A stretch of DNA of 64,000 nt from Lactobacillus paragasseri (GTDB lineage Bacteria; Bacillota; Bacilli; Lactobacillales; Lactobacillaceae), in assembly GCF_003584685.1 (NCBI RefSeq), contig NZ_AP018549.1:1240001-1304000 (forward strand), written 5' to 3'. Under the pieces are notes generated by a model. That model did no database searches. It was not told where the DNA came from and saw only the letters and a program-made list of their open reading frames with translations. Both the position numbers and the translations under genes were made by a program. Of the stretch, positions 19,137-53,932 are shown piece after piece. How positions within the stretch are numbered: the stretch's first letter is position 1; every line of letters begins with the position of its first letter.

Positions 19137-21776
19137 CTATTTACTTTCCTTTAATTCTTTCATACGTTCACGAACACCAGCAAGTTGACTTTCGTAGTCA
19201 GCTTTCTTTTCCTTCTCTTTGTTTACAACAGCTTCAGGAGCATGAGCTACAAAGCCTTGGTTTGCCAGTTTCTTTTCAGCTCTTTGTACTTCTTCTTCAA
19301 GACGCTTTTCTTCTTTTTCCATCTTCTTAAGTTCATCGTCAACGTTAACTAATTCAGTTAATGGAACAAAAATCTGAGCACCTGGAATTACGGCAGTTTT
19401 TGCAAGCTTTGGTGCCTCAATATCTGCTGCAACTTGCAAATCTTTAGGGTGCAAGAAGTTTTCTACATACTCGAAATTGTCATCCAAAATATGCTTATTT
19501 GCTTCATCATCTAATTGAATCATAATGTCAATTTGTGAAGACATTGGAGCATTAACTTCCATACGAATATTACGTACAGCCTTGATAACTTCAATTAAAA
19601 ATGCCATGTCATTATCAGCTTGCTTGTTTTCAAATTCTGCATGAGTTTCTGGATATTTAGCAGTCATAATTGACTTACCTTCATGGGGCATTGAAAGCCA
19701 TAGTTTTTCAGTAACAAACGGCATAATTGGGTGCATTAAACGCAAAATTTGATCAAGAATCCAAATTAAGTTTTCTTGCTTTCTAGCCTTTAATTCTTCA
19801 TCATCACCATTTAAAGCAACTTTAGAAATTTCAATGTACCAGTCACAGAAGTCATTCCAAATAAAGTTGTATAGTTCACGACCAGCTTCACCAAACTTAT
19901 ACTCATCAAATAAACGAGTAACTTCTGATACAGTATGATTTAATCTATCAAAAATCCAGCTATCTGCTAAATCAAACTGCGTAGTGTCTGGCATGTGAGC
20001 AGGTTTTGCATCTTCAGGCAAGTTCATAATTACAAAACGACTTGCATTCCAAATTTTGTTGATAAAGTTCCAAGCAGCAGCTAATTTCTTTGGATCATAA
20101 CGAGTGTCTTGACCAGGAGCAGTACCGTTTAATAAGAACCAACGTAGAGCATCGGCACCATACTTATCAACAACATCCATCGGATCAACACCATTACCAA
20201 GTGATTTACTCATCTTGCGTCCTTGTTCATCTCGCATTAAACCGTGCAAAACAACATCTTTAAATGGACGCTTCTTAGTAAAGTGAAGACCTTGGAAGAT
20301 CATTCTTGATACCCAGAAGAAAATAATGTCATATCCGGTAACTAAAGTGTTAGTTGGGAAGTAACGCTTAAAGTCTGGATTATCAGTATCTGGCCAGCCT
20401 AATGTTGAAAATGGCCAAAGTGCACTTGAGAACCAAGTATCTAGAACATCTGGATCTTGTTCCCAGTTTTCAATATCTTTAGGTGCTTCTTCGCCAACGT
20501 AAGTTTCACCAGTCTTCTTGTTGTACCAAGCTGGAATACGGTGACCCCACCATAATTGACGAGAAATTACCCAATCATGAACATCTTCCATCCAGTGGTT
20601 CAAAGTACCTTCAAATCGTTCTGGAACAAAGTTAACTTTACCATCAGTCTTTTGATTCTTAAGAACTTCTTCGGCAAGTGGCTTCATCTTAACGAACCAT
20701 TGCTTTGAAAGTCTAGGCTCTACTTGAACGCCAGAACGTTCAGAGTGACCAACTGAGTGAACAATTGGTTCAACTTTAATTAAGTATCCTTCTTTCTTTA
20801 AGTCCTTAACTAGAGCCTCACGAGCTTCAAAACGATCCATACCAGCATACTTACCAGCTTCTTCGTTCATAGTTCCGTCATCATTCATTACATTAATTCT
20901 TTCAAGATTATGACGGTTACCTACTTGGAAGTCGTTAGGATCGTGCGCTGGCGTAATCTTAACTAAACCAGTACCAAATTCTGGATCTACGTGTTGGTCT
21001 TCAATAATTGGAATATGACGACCAACAAGTGGAAGAACTAATTCTTTTCCTACAATATCTTTATAACGCTCATCCCCTGGTGCAACAGCTACAGCTGTAT
21101 CACCAAACATAGTTTCAGGACGAGTAGTTGCAATTTCAACAAAGCCTGATCCATCTGCAAATGGGTATTTTACATGGTAAAATGCACCCTTATCGTCTTT
21201 GTGAATAACTTCAATATCACTAAGAGCAGTTTGTAATTCTGGATCCCAGTTAATAATATATTCACCGCGATAAATTAGTCCTTCGTTATATAATTGAACG
21301 AAAACTTTTCTAACGGCTTTTGAAAGACCTTTATCTAAAGTAAATCTTTCTCTTGAATAATCAAGAGATAGTCCCATTTTAGCCCATTGACCCTTGATGA
21401 TATTTGCATATTCATCTTTCCAGTCCCAAACTTGCTTAACAAAAGCTTCACGTCCCATCTGGTGACGGTCTTTACCTTGTTTACGCAACTTTGCTTCCAC
21501 TTTAGCTTGAGTAGCAATACCAGCATGATCCATACCTGGAAGGTAAAGAGTATCATAGCCTTCCATTCGCTTAAAACGAATTAATGTATCTTGAATTGCG
21601 GTATCCCAAGCGTGTCCTAAGTGTAATTTTCCAGTTACATTTGGTGGTGGAATAACAATTGAATAAGGGTGAGCCTTTTTATCGCCAGATGGCTTAAAAA
21701 GATCCTCATCAAGCCATTCTTGATATCTACCTTTTTCAACCTCATTAGGATTATATTTAGGTGCTAAATCTGTCAT
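19137..21776 (-). CDS. valS: Valyl-tRNA synthetase
   Basis: The 879-aa class I synthetase charges tRNA-Val. The HIGH motif is LHLGHAWD near residue 50, the KMSKS motif is RKMSKSLGN near 525, the editing domain contains [14 protein letters not shown], and the C-terminal coiled-coil arm is seen in the last 70 residues. It is expressed from a T-box leader at 21791-22022. A strong GGAGG precedes the ATG. The folC and HAD genes follow in the same direction. Confidence 0.98.
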
Positions 21777-21790
21777 TAAAATTCCTCCAA

Positions 21791-22022
21791 TAAAAAAGTC
21801 CTAGACAACTTATATTGTCTAGGACGAAATTTTCCGCGGTACCACCTACGTTAAGTATACAATTGTATACCTCTCTTATAAGCGATAACGGTGCTGAAGT
21901 GTCCGGATTAACCTACTAAAGTTCAATTAATCAGCTAATCAAGCTACTCGTAAAATTCTGAAGTCTCTCAGCATACTGACTTTTCTCTGTAATACGAATT
22001 TACTCCTCTTGATTCCTGCTTT
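21791..22022 (-). promoter_or_regulatory. T-box riboswitch leader of valS (specifier GUA, Val)
   Basis: The minus-strand leader contains the T-box core AGGTGGTACCGCGG (21834-21847), an 11-bp terminator stem (GTCCTAGACAA / TTGTCTAGGAC) and a T run before the valS site. In stem I, CAAG pairs with CTTG and TCGTA with TACGA, leaving an AGTA-containing 5' bulge opposite GTA(G), which places the specifier GUA at 21945-21947. This codon matches valine. A TGC-TATAAT extended -10 is at 22030-22038. Uncharged tRNA-Val should favour antitermination. Confidence 0.95.
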
Positions 22023-22066
22023 GTTTATGATTATAGCATGAAAGAAAACAAGAGAAAAGGTGAGAA

Positions 22067-24694
22067 TTAACCTCTATTTTCTCTGATTACTTTTACCAAC
22101 TGAATTAAAACTGTCGGAATAATTGCTAAAATCACGATTAGCCAAACTTCTTGTCCGCTTAATGGTTGAACAGCAAATAAGCCATGAAGTGTTGGTACAA
22201 AGAGAATTAAGACTAAAAGTGCAGTGCCTAATGCAAAGGCTGCTAAACTGTACCAATTGTTTTTAAATCCAATTTTAAAAATGCTATGTTGTGAGCGACA
22301 ATTAAAACCGTGAAGCAAACGTGCAAATGTTAAAGTTGAAAAGGCCATAGTACATGCAATTGCAGGACTGTCTTTTAAGCCAATTAAAAATGCAGTAATA
22401 ACACTTAACGAAATTAAGAAGCCTTGCGTACTGATTTGAGTAACAAATGGTTTATCTAACAAACTAGCTTTAGGATCGCGTGGTTTACGCTTTAAAATAT
22501 CAGGATTTCCTGGCTCCATTCCGATTGCTAAAGCTGGAAGCGAATCAGTAACTAAGTTAATGAATAAAAGTTGTACTGCAACAAATGGTACTGGCAATCC
22601 AGCAATTGAAGCAAATAAAACGGTAATAATTGCCGATAAGTTACCCGATAATAAGTAACCAATCGCATTTTTGATATTTTCATAAACTGTTCTACCATTT
22701 GCAACAGCTTTGATAATTGTAGCAAAGTTATCATCAGTTAAAATCATACTTGCTGCATCTTTTGATACTTCTGTACCTGTGATACCCATTGCTACACCAA
22801 CGTCAGCTTTCTTAAGGGCGGGAGCGTCGTTAACGCCATCACCAGTCATTGATACAATATGATCTTTTCTTTGCCACGCGTTAACAATTCTAATTTTGTT
22901 TTCTGGAGAAACACGAGCATAAACTGCGACTTTTTCAATTTCTTGGTCTAGTTCTTCATCACTTAAAGCATCTAACTCTAAACCAGTTAAAGCAATATCT
23001 CCGTCGTTAAAAATACCAATCTTTTTAGCAATAGCTACCGCAGTAACCTTATGGTCACCTGTAATCATTACCGTTCTGATACCGGCCTCTTTTGCGCGAG
23101 CAACGGCTGCGACGCTTTCTTCTCGCGGTGGATCCATTTCTGAAACTAAACCAATGAAAGTTAAGTCTTTCTCAGTATCGGCAGATAACTCTTCATCGCT
23201 CTCTTTATATGCAAATGCAAGCACTCTTAAACCATTTTCTGAAAAATGATTATTCTGAGCTAAAATATTCTTTCGGTCTTGCTCAGTTAGTGGTCGCACT
23301 TCATCCCCAAAACGAATATTAATGCAGCGCTTAAGCAAGACATCGATTGCTCCTTTAACAAAAATTGTTGGAACAGTATGAATTAAATGCTTAGTACTCA
23401 TCAACTTACGGTCAGAATCAAATGGTACTTCTTCTAAACGATCTAAGTGATTTCTTAATTCACTCTCTGATAAACCTAGCTTTCCATTTCCAAGATCAAT
23501 TCCTGGTACCTTACGATACATTTCAAGCAATGCGGATTCTGTTGGGTCACCAATCTTCTTACCATCAGATAAACTAGCATCATTATTCAAAACTACATCA
23601 TATAGTAAATAGCGGTGCAATTGATTACTTAAGTTAAGTTCTTCGGGCTTAAGAACTTCACCACCAATATAAATATCTTCAACAGTCATTTTGTTTTGAG
23701 TTAAAGTACCAGTTTTATCAGAACAGATTACTGAAACTGAGCCCAATGATTCAACAGCTGCTAAATTTTTGATAATGGCATGTTCCTTAGCCATTTTTTG
23801 CGTTCCCATAGCTTGAACAATTGTAACGATTGAACTTAAAGCTTCTGGAATAGCAGCAACAGCTAGTGCTACTGCAAATAATAGCGCGTCTAGTAAAGGT
23901 TGACCACGCCACATTTGTAATCCTAAGATCAAGGCACAGAAAATCAAAATTGCGGTTGCCAAGCGTGATGAAAATTGATCAAGTGAAACTTGAAGAGGCG
24001 TTCTGCGCTCCTTAGTTTCATTCATTAAGGTGGCAATCTTACCGATTTCAGTATCCATTCCAGTTGCTGTAACTAAGACATTTGCTCGTCCATATGTTAC
24101 AAGCGAACTAGAATAAACCATGTTTACTCTGTCTCCTAAGGGAACTTCCTTATCAAAAGTTGTATCTAATTTATCAATATTAGTTGACTCACCAGTTAAG
24201 GAGCTTTCATTTACTTGTAATGAAAAATTATCTAAAATTCTACCATCAGCAGTAACTAGATCGCCTGCCTCAAGTAAAAGAATATCGCCAGGAACAACAT
24301 CTTTTGCGGCAATTTCTTGTTTTTTACCATCCCTTAAAACTTTTGCCGCAGGTGCTGACAAAGACTTTAGGGCTTCTAATGATTTTTCAGCTTTAACATG
24401 TTGGACTGTTCCTAAAATTGCGTTCAAAATTAAAACAACAATAATAACTGCAGTACTTTCTAAATTACCAGTAAACGCAGAAATCACAGCGGCAACAATC
24501 AAGATGATGACCATTAAATCTTTAAATTGCTCTAAAAAGACTTCTAAAATACTTTTTTTCTTACCTTCGATTAAAGCATTTGGTCCTACTTGTGCTAATT
24601 TTTCTTGAGCAACTTTATTGGTTAACCCCTGCTTTTCATTAGCTCCTAATTCTTTGATAAGCTCTTCTTTGCTTTCACGATAGTATGCTTTCAC
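22067..24694 (-). CDS. P-type cation ATPase (type IIA-like), probable Mn2+/Ca2+ exporter
   Basis: The 875-aa pump has all P-type ATPase landmarks: TGES ([10 protein letters not shown]), phosphorylation loop [28 protein letters not shown] and the hinge [17 protein letters not shown], with about ten membrane helices. TM4 reads AAIPEALSS, close to the PEGL motif of calcium pumps but with Ala for Gly. By homology alone it would be called a calcium ATPase. The leader at 24734-24860 looks like a yybP-ykoY manganese riboswitch, which points to Mn2+ export as in L. lactis YoaB and the pneumococcal homologue. It starts at GTG 24694 after GGAGG. Confidence 0.88.
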
Positions 24695-24733
24695 TTAAAC
24701 CCTCCATCTAATAGGAAAAACAGACTTTGGCAT

Positions 24734-24860
24734 AAAAAAAGAGACCACTGTCTGAACAAAAAATGTTTAGCCAATAGTCTCACCATTTAAACTTACAGCG
24801 GAAAAATTAATTTCGTTTTGACGCCATAAATACACCTTATGCCGGTTACTCCCTATATAT
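24734..24860 (-). promoter_or_regulatory. Putative yybP-ykoY manganese riboswitch with expression-platform terminator
   Basis: The minus-strand transcript begins near ATATATAGGGAGTAACCGGC, has an internal hairpin region, and returns with GGTGAGACTATTGGC. The GGGAGTA and TGAGAC blocks flank a short ATAG/CTAT stem, as in the yybP-ykoY aptamer (consensus GGGGAGUA ... GAGACCUUU). The 3' aptamer strand GAGACTATTG also pairs with CAGTGGTCTC, followed by TTTTTTT (24734-24781). Binding would hold that strand in the aptamer and prevent termination, turning on the pump. Confidence 0.8.
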
Positions 24861-24864
24861 ATTG

Positions 24865-24892
24865 AGTATAAGTTTACCATTTTTTACGTAAA
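24865..24892 (-). promoter_or_regulatory. Promoter of the ATPase riboswitch transcript
   Basis: On the minus strand TTTACG, a 16-base spacer and TATACT place the transcription start near 24858, just before the aptamer. It begins right after the stop of the phosphodiesterase gene. Confidence 0.6.
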
Positions 24893-33795: not shown

Positions 33796-33990
33796 GATCT
33801 GAGTTGATCAACCTAATTACAAAGTTGACCGATCAAACTAAAGACGTTGGAATTTATGAATAACATCTGAATCGGAATACTAGTCTAATCTAGGATCCAT
33901 ATTCACTGCGACATAGATTCAAATATTGAACACTGCGGGTTCAACAAGCGTCATTACGTTGCAGTCAACTCAGATTCCATTGAAATTTAA
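33796..33990 (+). ncRNA. ssrS: 6S RNA (RNA polymerase-binding regulator)
   Basis: The non-coding stretch has a strong promoter and long 5'/3' complementarity: GATCTGAGTTGA near 33797 pairs with TCAACTCAGAT near 33964. The arms pair imperfectly inward (GACGTTGGAATTTATGAA-type arm with an inner bubble), giving one long rod of about 185-200 nt. This is the 6S RNA architecture, which mimics an open promoter and traps sigma-A RNA polymerase. The position next to rarA supports this. The exact 3' end is uncertain, either after the stem or at the terminator. Confidence 0.85.
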
Positions 33991-53840: not shown

Positions 53841-53873
53841 AAAAAAGAGTGGAGGCAATCGCCTCTACCCTTT
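53841..53873 (-). terminator. Terminator after pgi
   Basis: Minus-strand AAAGGGTAGAGGC / GCCTCCACTCTTT with a GATT loop (one mismatch, one G-U) and a T run lies 60 bases after pgi. It is 13 bases before the DHA2 transporter start. Confidence 0.85.
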
Positions 53874-53932
53874 CTTTAACTATTAATTATAGTTATATTA
53901 ATCCGCATACTATCAAAATATGCTAAGTAGAT

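Follow-up and report, generated by a model that had tools for sequence, protein, structure and literature searches.

A yybP-ykoY-type leader RNA with an overlapping terminator ahead of a P2A cation ATPase in Lactobacillus paragasseri

What controls synthesis of the P-type ATPase encoded at this locus of Lactobacillus paragasseri, and which ion does the pump export? An initial annotation placed a probable manganese riboswitch before the pump and doubted its usual calcium label. The reading that we favor, with a probability of about 0.78, is transcription attenuation by a yybP-ykoY-type Mn2+ riboswitch before a pump that most likely exports Mn2+ and maybe also Ca2+. The leader lies on the minus strand and spans the region from a promoter-like TTTACG/TATACT pair to the GTG start of the pump open reading frame (ORF). 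Coordinates are those of the window, the whole 64,000-nucleotide stretch of DNA that was analyzed, and its features at this locus are as follows.

22067-24694, minus strand: ORF of 875 codons with a GTG start, encoding an 875-residue P2A (type IIA) P-type ATPase (Pfam cation ATPase domains; PDB relative LMCA1)
23837-23848, minus strand: Pro-Glu-Ala-Leu of TM4, residues 283-286 (from sequence; identical PEALSS in LMCA1)
24700-24705, minus strand: probable ribosome-binding site GGAGGG (read from the sequence)
24734-24740, minus strand: terminator U tract (from sequence)
24741-24781, minus strand: terminator hairpin, its 5' arm beginning with the GAGAC block (10 outer pairs; present in the minimum-energy fold of the leader)
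24768-24865, minus strand: riboswitch aptamer matched by models R1 (104.7 bits) and R2 (63.3 bits, E 1.8e-13 for the whole genome)
24774-24777, minus strand: P1 3' strand CUAU, common to the terminator stem (paired in 21/21 leaders)
24778-24781, minus strand: L1 3' strand GAGA (invariant in alignment A1)
24782-24784, minus strand: P1.2 3' strand GGU (RNAalifold)
24791-24800, minus strand: P3 3' strand (both-side changes in 2/10 pairs)
24801-24821, minus strand: L3, including a small A-U hairpin (alignment A1)
24822-24831, minus strand: P3 5' strand (covariation analysis and RNAalifold)
24832-24842, minus strand: P2 hairpin, strands 24839-24842 and 24832-24835 (both-side changes in 2/4 pairs)
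24844-24846, minus strand: P1.2 5' strand ACC (RNAalifold)
24847-24852, minus strand: L1 5' strand GGAGUA (invariant in alignments A1 and A3)
24853-24856, minus strand: P1 5' strand AUAG (covariation analysis and RNAalifold)
24865-24892, minus strand: promoter-like TTTACG, 16 nt, TATACT (9/12 consensus bases)

Anatomy of the leader and its overlapping terminator

The sequence blocks described in the initial annotation, GGGAGTA and TGAGAC around a stem, with GAGAC reused as the 5' strand of a terminator, are all present on the minus strand. GGGAGTA occupies 24853-24847 and GAGAC occupies 24781-24777, with GGT just before it, while the terminator hairpin (24781-24741; -16.7 kcal/mol alone) builds its 5' arm from this GAGAC block and runs into seven U (24740-24734). 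The leader contains the L1 loop GGGAGUA/GAGA, closed by P1 and P1.2, and a second stem, P3, with the conserved L3 beside it. The native leader fold beats 200/200 dinucleotide shuffles (z -3.48). In a scan for promoters and terminators the promoter-like match was not above chance by count, with 1 found versus 0.9 expected, and the same scan did not report the leader terminator.

The proposed structure is conserved among relatives. Of the pair cells that the 18 proposed pairs define in alignment A1 (21 distinct leaders of Lactobacillus), 99.2% form, and the covariation score of the leaders was reached by 0/500 shuffles. Both-side changes occur in only 4/18 of these pairs, a weak measure because 76/500 shuffles reach that number, and further pair types show no excess (9 versus 10.6 in shuffles). 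RNAalifold, with no structure supplied, recovered the same helices together with P1.2 closing the L1 loop, and seven leaders of paralogous pumps (alignment A2) have the same architecture. Across 59 leaders of Lactobacillales outside the genus Lactobacillus, compensatory changes are found in 19/25 pairs. A pattern consisting of G[GA]GAGTA[AG], [AG]AGACT, and a T-tailed partner occurs upstream in 82 of 114 loci with the pump or a relative, a set that includes duplicate genomes and paralogues of other subfamilies, and in 0/16,400 first-order Markov resamplings of the 82 positive regions. Within the genus, the pump is carried by 24 of 61 genomes (one partial) and the leader is kept in 23 of these 24, the exception being L097, which has other DNA at the leader position.

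P1 and the terminator are mutually exclusive, with GAGACUAUUG belonging to both P1/L1 and the terminator. When folded to the end of the U tract, the leader reaches -29.3 kcal/mol with the terminator, which is the minimum-energy fold, and -15.6 kcal/mol with P1 imposed. An overlap of P1 and terminator of at least 7 pairs is found in 82/84 leaders, although 82 of the 84 were preselected by a pattern that demands a terminator partner. Because the terminator fold is more stable than the P1 fold, termination is the default, and a ligand has to keep P1 and L1 in place while transcription proceeds. Termination as the default fits the Mn2+ activation described for relatives.

In riboswitches of this type, loops L1 and L3 are joined by Mn2+. 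When Mn2+ is scarce, the GAGACUAUUG strand would pair forward into the terminator and transcription would stop before the pump. With Mn2+ bridging L1 and L3, P1 and L1 would hold the GAGACUAUUG strand, the terminator would be blocked, and the pump would be made. Against this ON reading, a review terms Mn riboswitches OFF switches in the portion available (PMC11477304), a label at odds with the title of the Martin et al paper that it cites.

A separate pairing involves the P2 5' strand, GGCAUAAGG (24834-24843), which in the minimum-energy fold pairs with 24725-24740, at and just after the U tract. The complementarity is species-matched among Lactobacillus leaders, with 2/2000 permutations as good when relatedness is ignored, and several species do not have the pairing, which we treat as a lead only.

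Relation of the leader to known RNA families

The initial annotation proposed a search with the Rfam yybP-ykoY model, and here the direct route failed: RF00080, the Rfam manganese model, misses the leader even at E≤10, its sole match in the genome (7.3 bits) lying elsewhere. For the search, this is the outcome that the annotation had listed as refuting, and the link has to run via SSRC10 and models built here. RF02617 (SSRC10) scores the leader at 33.8 bits (E 8.2e-5), under its gathering cut-off of 56, and aligns with it end to end, terminator included. Model R1 was built with the window leader among its members, and the membership claim rests instead on model R2, built from 59 leaders (alignment A3), none from the genus Lactobacillus; the R2 members were collected using R1, with the window leader inside, and SSRC10, so their gathering was not independent of the window. 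Among the 150 of 1316 first-look candidates that were scored, the whole-genome R2 matches at E≤10 are the window leader (1.8e-13) and the leader of a paralogous pump (6.6e-14).

In a set of 148 Lactobacillales genomes, R2 matches 124 at E≤0.001 and SSRC10 matches 98 at E≤0.05, 19 of these above its cut-off. At E≤1, RF00080 is found in 35 genomes; the 18 in which it exceeds its cut-off all belong to family f8, in whose genomes R2 has no matches. An f8 pump that is almost the same as LMCA1 shows that this family contains Listeria. Outside f8, RF00080 has 20 matches at E≤1; every one of the 12 best (E≤0.0101) coincides with an R2 site, and none of the other 8 does. Because the 12 best coincide with R2 sites, RF00080 and R2 describe one RNA family, and this coincidence, unlike the gathering of R2 members, is independent of the window. 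GGGAGUA, P2, P3, and L3 are common to RF00080 and the leader, as seen on a clostridial relative, although the window leader itself is not scored. At 20 leader loci RF00080 scores 0/20 at E≤1 and SSRC10 17/20, and R1 matches streptococcal-type SSRC10 leaders at 55-62 bits. The Rfam manganese model passes its cut-off in 0/124 of the Lactobacillales genomes with an R2 leader, which marks a gap in this order.

The proposal of a yybP-ykoY-type leader with an overlapping terminator is upheld by the compensatory base changes and the R2 match, and the literature, in the parts available, ties the family to Mn2+-induced P-type ATPases. At the level of sequence, the leader is well supported as a yybP-ykoY-type manganese riboswitch with an overlapping terminator.

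In riboswitches of this type, the conserved C and A of L3 have a role in Mn2+ binding. Both follow the P3 stem, are kept in the window leader, and are invariant in 59/59 A3 members, and L1 is intact. These features make it improbable that the leader answers another ion, either Ca2+ or a mixture, with an L3 that differs from the canonical one. That possibility draws on the failure of RF00080 to score the leader, on the term Mn/Ca2+-sensing applied to the pneumococcal switch in the accessible part of PMC11434433, and on 12 other genomes in which a member of this family precedes a KUP potassium transporter, so that tasks may differ within the family.

The KUP-linked sites are second, lower-scoring R2 sites in 12 Lactobacillales genomes (L211-L222), and precede these transporters rather than ATPases. 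The GDIGTSPLY motif follows in 12/12, Pfam K_trans was found in 3/3 tested, and 6/12 sites coincide with sub-threshold RF00080 matches; within the open-licence literature, we found no paper joining yybP-ykoY, potassium, and kup. At L224, in a genome of the Listeria family (G197), a canonical RF00080 match precedes a TerC/YkoY-family gene (TIGR03716) ~139 kb from an LMCA1-type pump. Three further RNAs in the window score above their cut-offs: a T-box leader (21817-22025, minus strand; 102.2 bits versus a cut-off of 93) before ORF 19137-21776, which looks like a valyl-tRNA synthetase, a Lacto-usp RNA (33831-33920, plus strand; 95.8 bits), and an emrB-Lactobacillus RNA (53865-53929, minus strand; 83.6 bits).

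The match to SSRC10 raises the question of whether the leader is instead a small RNA gene, as SSRC10 was filed, with the pump merely a neighbor. SSRC10 was published as a small RNA of Streptococcus pyogenes with Northern signals, mapped ends, and a terminator, and is treated as a trans-acting candidate in the portion of that paper available (PMC3675131). In the same source it is flanked by a hypothetical gene and, directly downstream, by SPyM3_0440, which is put down as a calcium transporter; all three point in one direction. A PEGL ATPase ORF lies downstream at 27/30 SSRC10 loci, and the ATPases of the remaining three (L130, L134, and L146) were placed in the pump tree, two as PEGL and one as PEAL. 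Furthermore, the terminator uses an aptamer strand. Given these arrangements, we consider a freestanding small RNA gene highly improbable. One pneumococcal small RNA candidate is identified as the Mn2+ riboswitch (PMC12323649, in part), and SSRC10 probably represents the same Mn-type leader after termination; our search of the open-licence literature found no paper tying the two together. The Rfam small RNA family SSRC10 probably needs re-reading as a terminated riboswitch form.

The pump and its ion

As the initial annotation stated, the pump is a type IIA ATPase with PEAL in TM4. It has the P2A domains, DKTGT, the site II residues, and an M8 Arg replacing site I that characterize LMCA1-like type IIA Ca2+-ATPases, and its best PDB relative is LMCA1 (lmo0841; E 1e-241). 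The IPEALSS segment begins at residue 282. M4 PEALSS, M6 Asn and Asp, and M8 Arg are identical in Listeria LMCA1 (PDB 6zhf, 9euq), which differs in having Asn in M6 where the window pump has Thr. LMCA1 is described as a Ca2+-ATPase in which calcium has been observed at the position of site II (PMC11977196, available part). The pump misses the cut-offs of three NCBIfam calcium equivalogs (TIGR01522, 654.8/798.3 bits; TIGR01116, 644.1/703.4 bits; TIGR01517, 485/507 bits).

PEAL in place of PEGL had been taken as a sign against calcium, a suggestion that does not survive comparison. We rejected PEAL as a manganese signature because the Ca2+-ATPase LMCA1 has PEALSS and because PEGL pumps sit behind the same switch: PEGL is found in 27/27 SSRC10-led ATPases read and in the second riboswitch-led pump of this genome. 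In the seven PEGL paralogues examined, M5 carries Glu and M8 carries Gln. The R1 leader is present in 32/40 PEAL loci and 19/20 PEGL-side loci (motif read in 19/20 of the latter), two of the matches being weak (E 0.034); these are counts and not rates, since an SSRC10 match, or the lack of one, was among the grounds for choosing the 60 loci. The eight PEAL loci without the leader comprise five from f8, the Listeria family, and three from one genus of family f2. Because PEAL and PEGL loci both have or lack leaders, the TM4 motif does not separate manganese from calcium. The calcium label, which the initial annotation held to be probably wrong or incomplete, is incomplete at most.

Comparison with described systems suggests what the pump exports. 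S. pneumoniae MgtA, formerly CaxP, is under a Mn/Ca-sensing yybP-ykoY riboswitch (PMC11434433), and the mgtA riboswitch and its Mn2+/Ca2+ ATPase were reported by Martin et al (2019; via available parts of PMC11434433, PMC9331361, and PMC12323649). The same leader family stands before a P2A ATPase there as in the window. The SSRC10-led pumps read are PEGL and ~48% identical to the window pump, which belongs to the PEAL branch, and the pneumococcal pump is presumably PEGL as well. Lactococcus lactis YoaB, an ATPase behind a Mn2+ riboswitch, protects against Mn2+, and Clostridioides difficile CD2503 is a P-type ATPase behind a Mn2+ riboswitch (both in the part of PMC11477304 available); these share with the window a riboswitch before a cation P-type ATPase, a likeness by description. 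From work on these relatives we infer Mn2+ as the ligand, activation by the ligand, and Mn2+ export. By analogy, the pump likely exports Mn2+/Ca2+, and would be an LMCA1-like single-site P2A ATPase, most likely a Mn2+ exporter, with Ca2+ export possible too. Its role as a Mn2+ exporter of the MgtA/YoaB kind is predicted from regulatory association, and the match of its ion site to a Ca2+-ATPase counts against it, as does the lack of such a leader at the Listeria-family PEAL pumps.

The same ion site bears on whether the switch senses Mn2+ while the pump carries mainly Ca2+ and helps indirectly under Mn2+ load, with the calcium label right. The M4, M6 Asn and Asp, and M8 Arg residues common to the pump and LMCA1, where calcium is seen at site II (PMC11977196, in part), fit this arrangement, as does the rescue by calcium of Mn-sensitive growth in a pneumococcal mutant (PMC11434433, in part). 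However, a Ca2+-only exporter induced by Mn2+ would be less economical, the L. lactis and S. pneumoniae relatives are described, in the portions available, in Mn2+ protection or export, and the Listeria-family pumps fetched are, unlike the window pump, without the leader, so that leader and cargo may differ between branches. A mainly Ca2+ cargo is therefore unlikely in our judgment, and Mn2+ export remains the preferred reading.

Origin of the pump and its place in lactobacilli

The pump is 97% identical to that of Lactobacillus taiwanensis, a close relative, and PEAL pumps of Lachnospiraceae and Oscillospiraceae, most of them with a leader, are 62-70% identical to it. A tree of 143 rows, built from the N-terminal third of the pumps by a quick method and carrying a long-branch warning for outgroups, shows PEGL pumps and two sets of PEAL pumps, one from Lactobacillales (Listeria among them) and one from clostridia (support 99). 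It was used for pumps only, its leader labels being incomplete (L130, L134, L136, and L137 are marked 'no' despite an SSRC10 match). The Lactobacillus pump falls inside the clostridial PEAL group, where it shares a cluster of 13 rows with three pumps of Lachnospiraceae (SH-aLRT 91).

The leader shows a different affinity. Clostridial leaders were found at 55/68 loci by pattern, R1, R2, or R3, with two loci lacking upstream sequence and matches >500 nt upstream at L046 and L074 not counted. The leaders of Lachnospiraceae are laid out differently: a hairpin follows P3, and no hairpin precedes it. R3, built from 22 of them, does not score the window leader at E≤5, where R2 gives 63.3 bits. The leaders of L021 and L026, the loci nearest by protein sequence, obtain 89 and 84 bits from R3, which was trained on them, and 28 and 27 bits from R2. 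A likeness to the Lactobacillales type is seen among Oscillospiraceae leaders, L064 for example reaching 65 bits with R2 and 28.5 with R3. Because pump and leader have different affinities, transfer and re-wiring are suggested. Judging from sequence, the pump was probably acquired by horizontal transfer from gut clostridia, and the donor may have had an Oscillospiraceae-type leader.

The genome also encodes a paralogous PEGL pump (L003, G000:C1:1556976-1559767; 48% identical), which has its own leader of the same family (G000:C1:1559671-1559767; R2 E 6.6e-14). For the third P2A pump (L004, 44%), no such leader was found in R1 and R2 searches. We tentatively propose, as a possibility still open to considerable doubt, that a subset of gut lactobacilli has two pumps under Mn switches, which belong to different subfamilies and may have different set points; the second would be a clostridial import re-wired to a native-type manganese switch of the Lactobacillales build.

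A riboswitch before an ATPase is an arrangement already known from streptococci and Lactococcus, of which the window is an ordinary member. Added here are the corrected PEAL reading, the gap in the Rfam manganese model, a probable reinterpretation of SSRC10, and a second pump, in all likelihood transferred, under the same kind of switch. The statement in the initial annotation that lactobacilli store high Mn can be kept for Lactobacillus acidophilus and L. plantarum only, for which high Mn content is documented (PMC8791193, available part). For manganese-hoarding lactobacilli, the leader and pump offer a concrete candidate route for shedding Mn.
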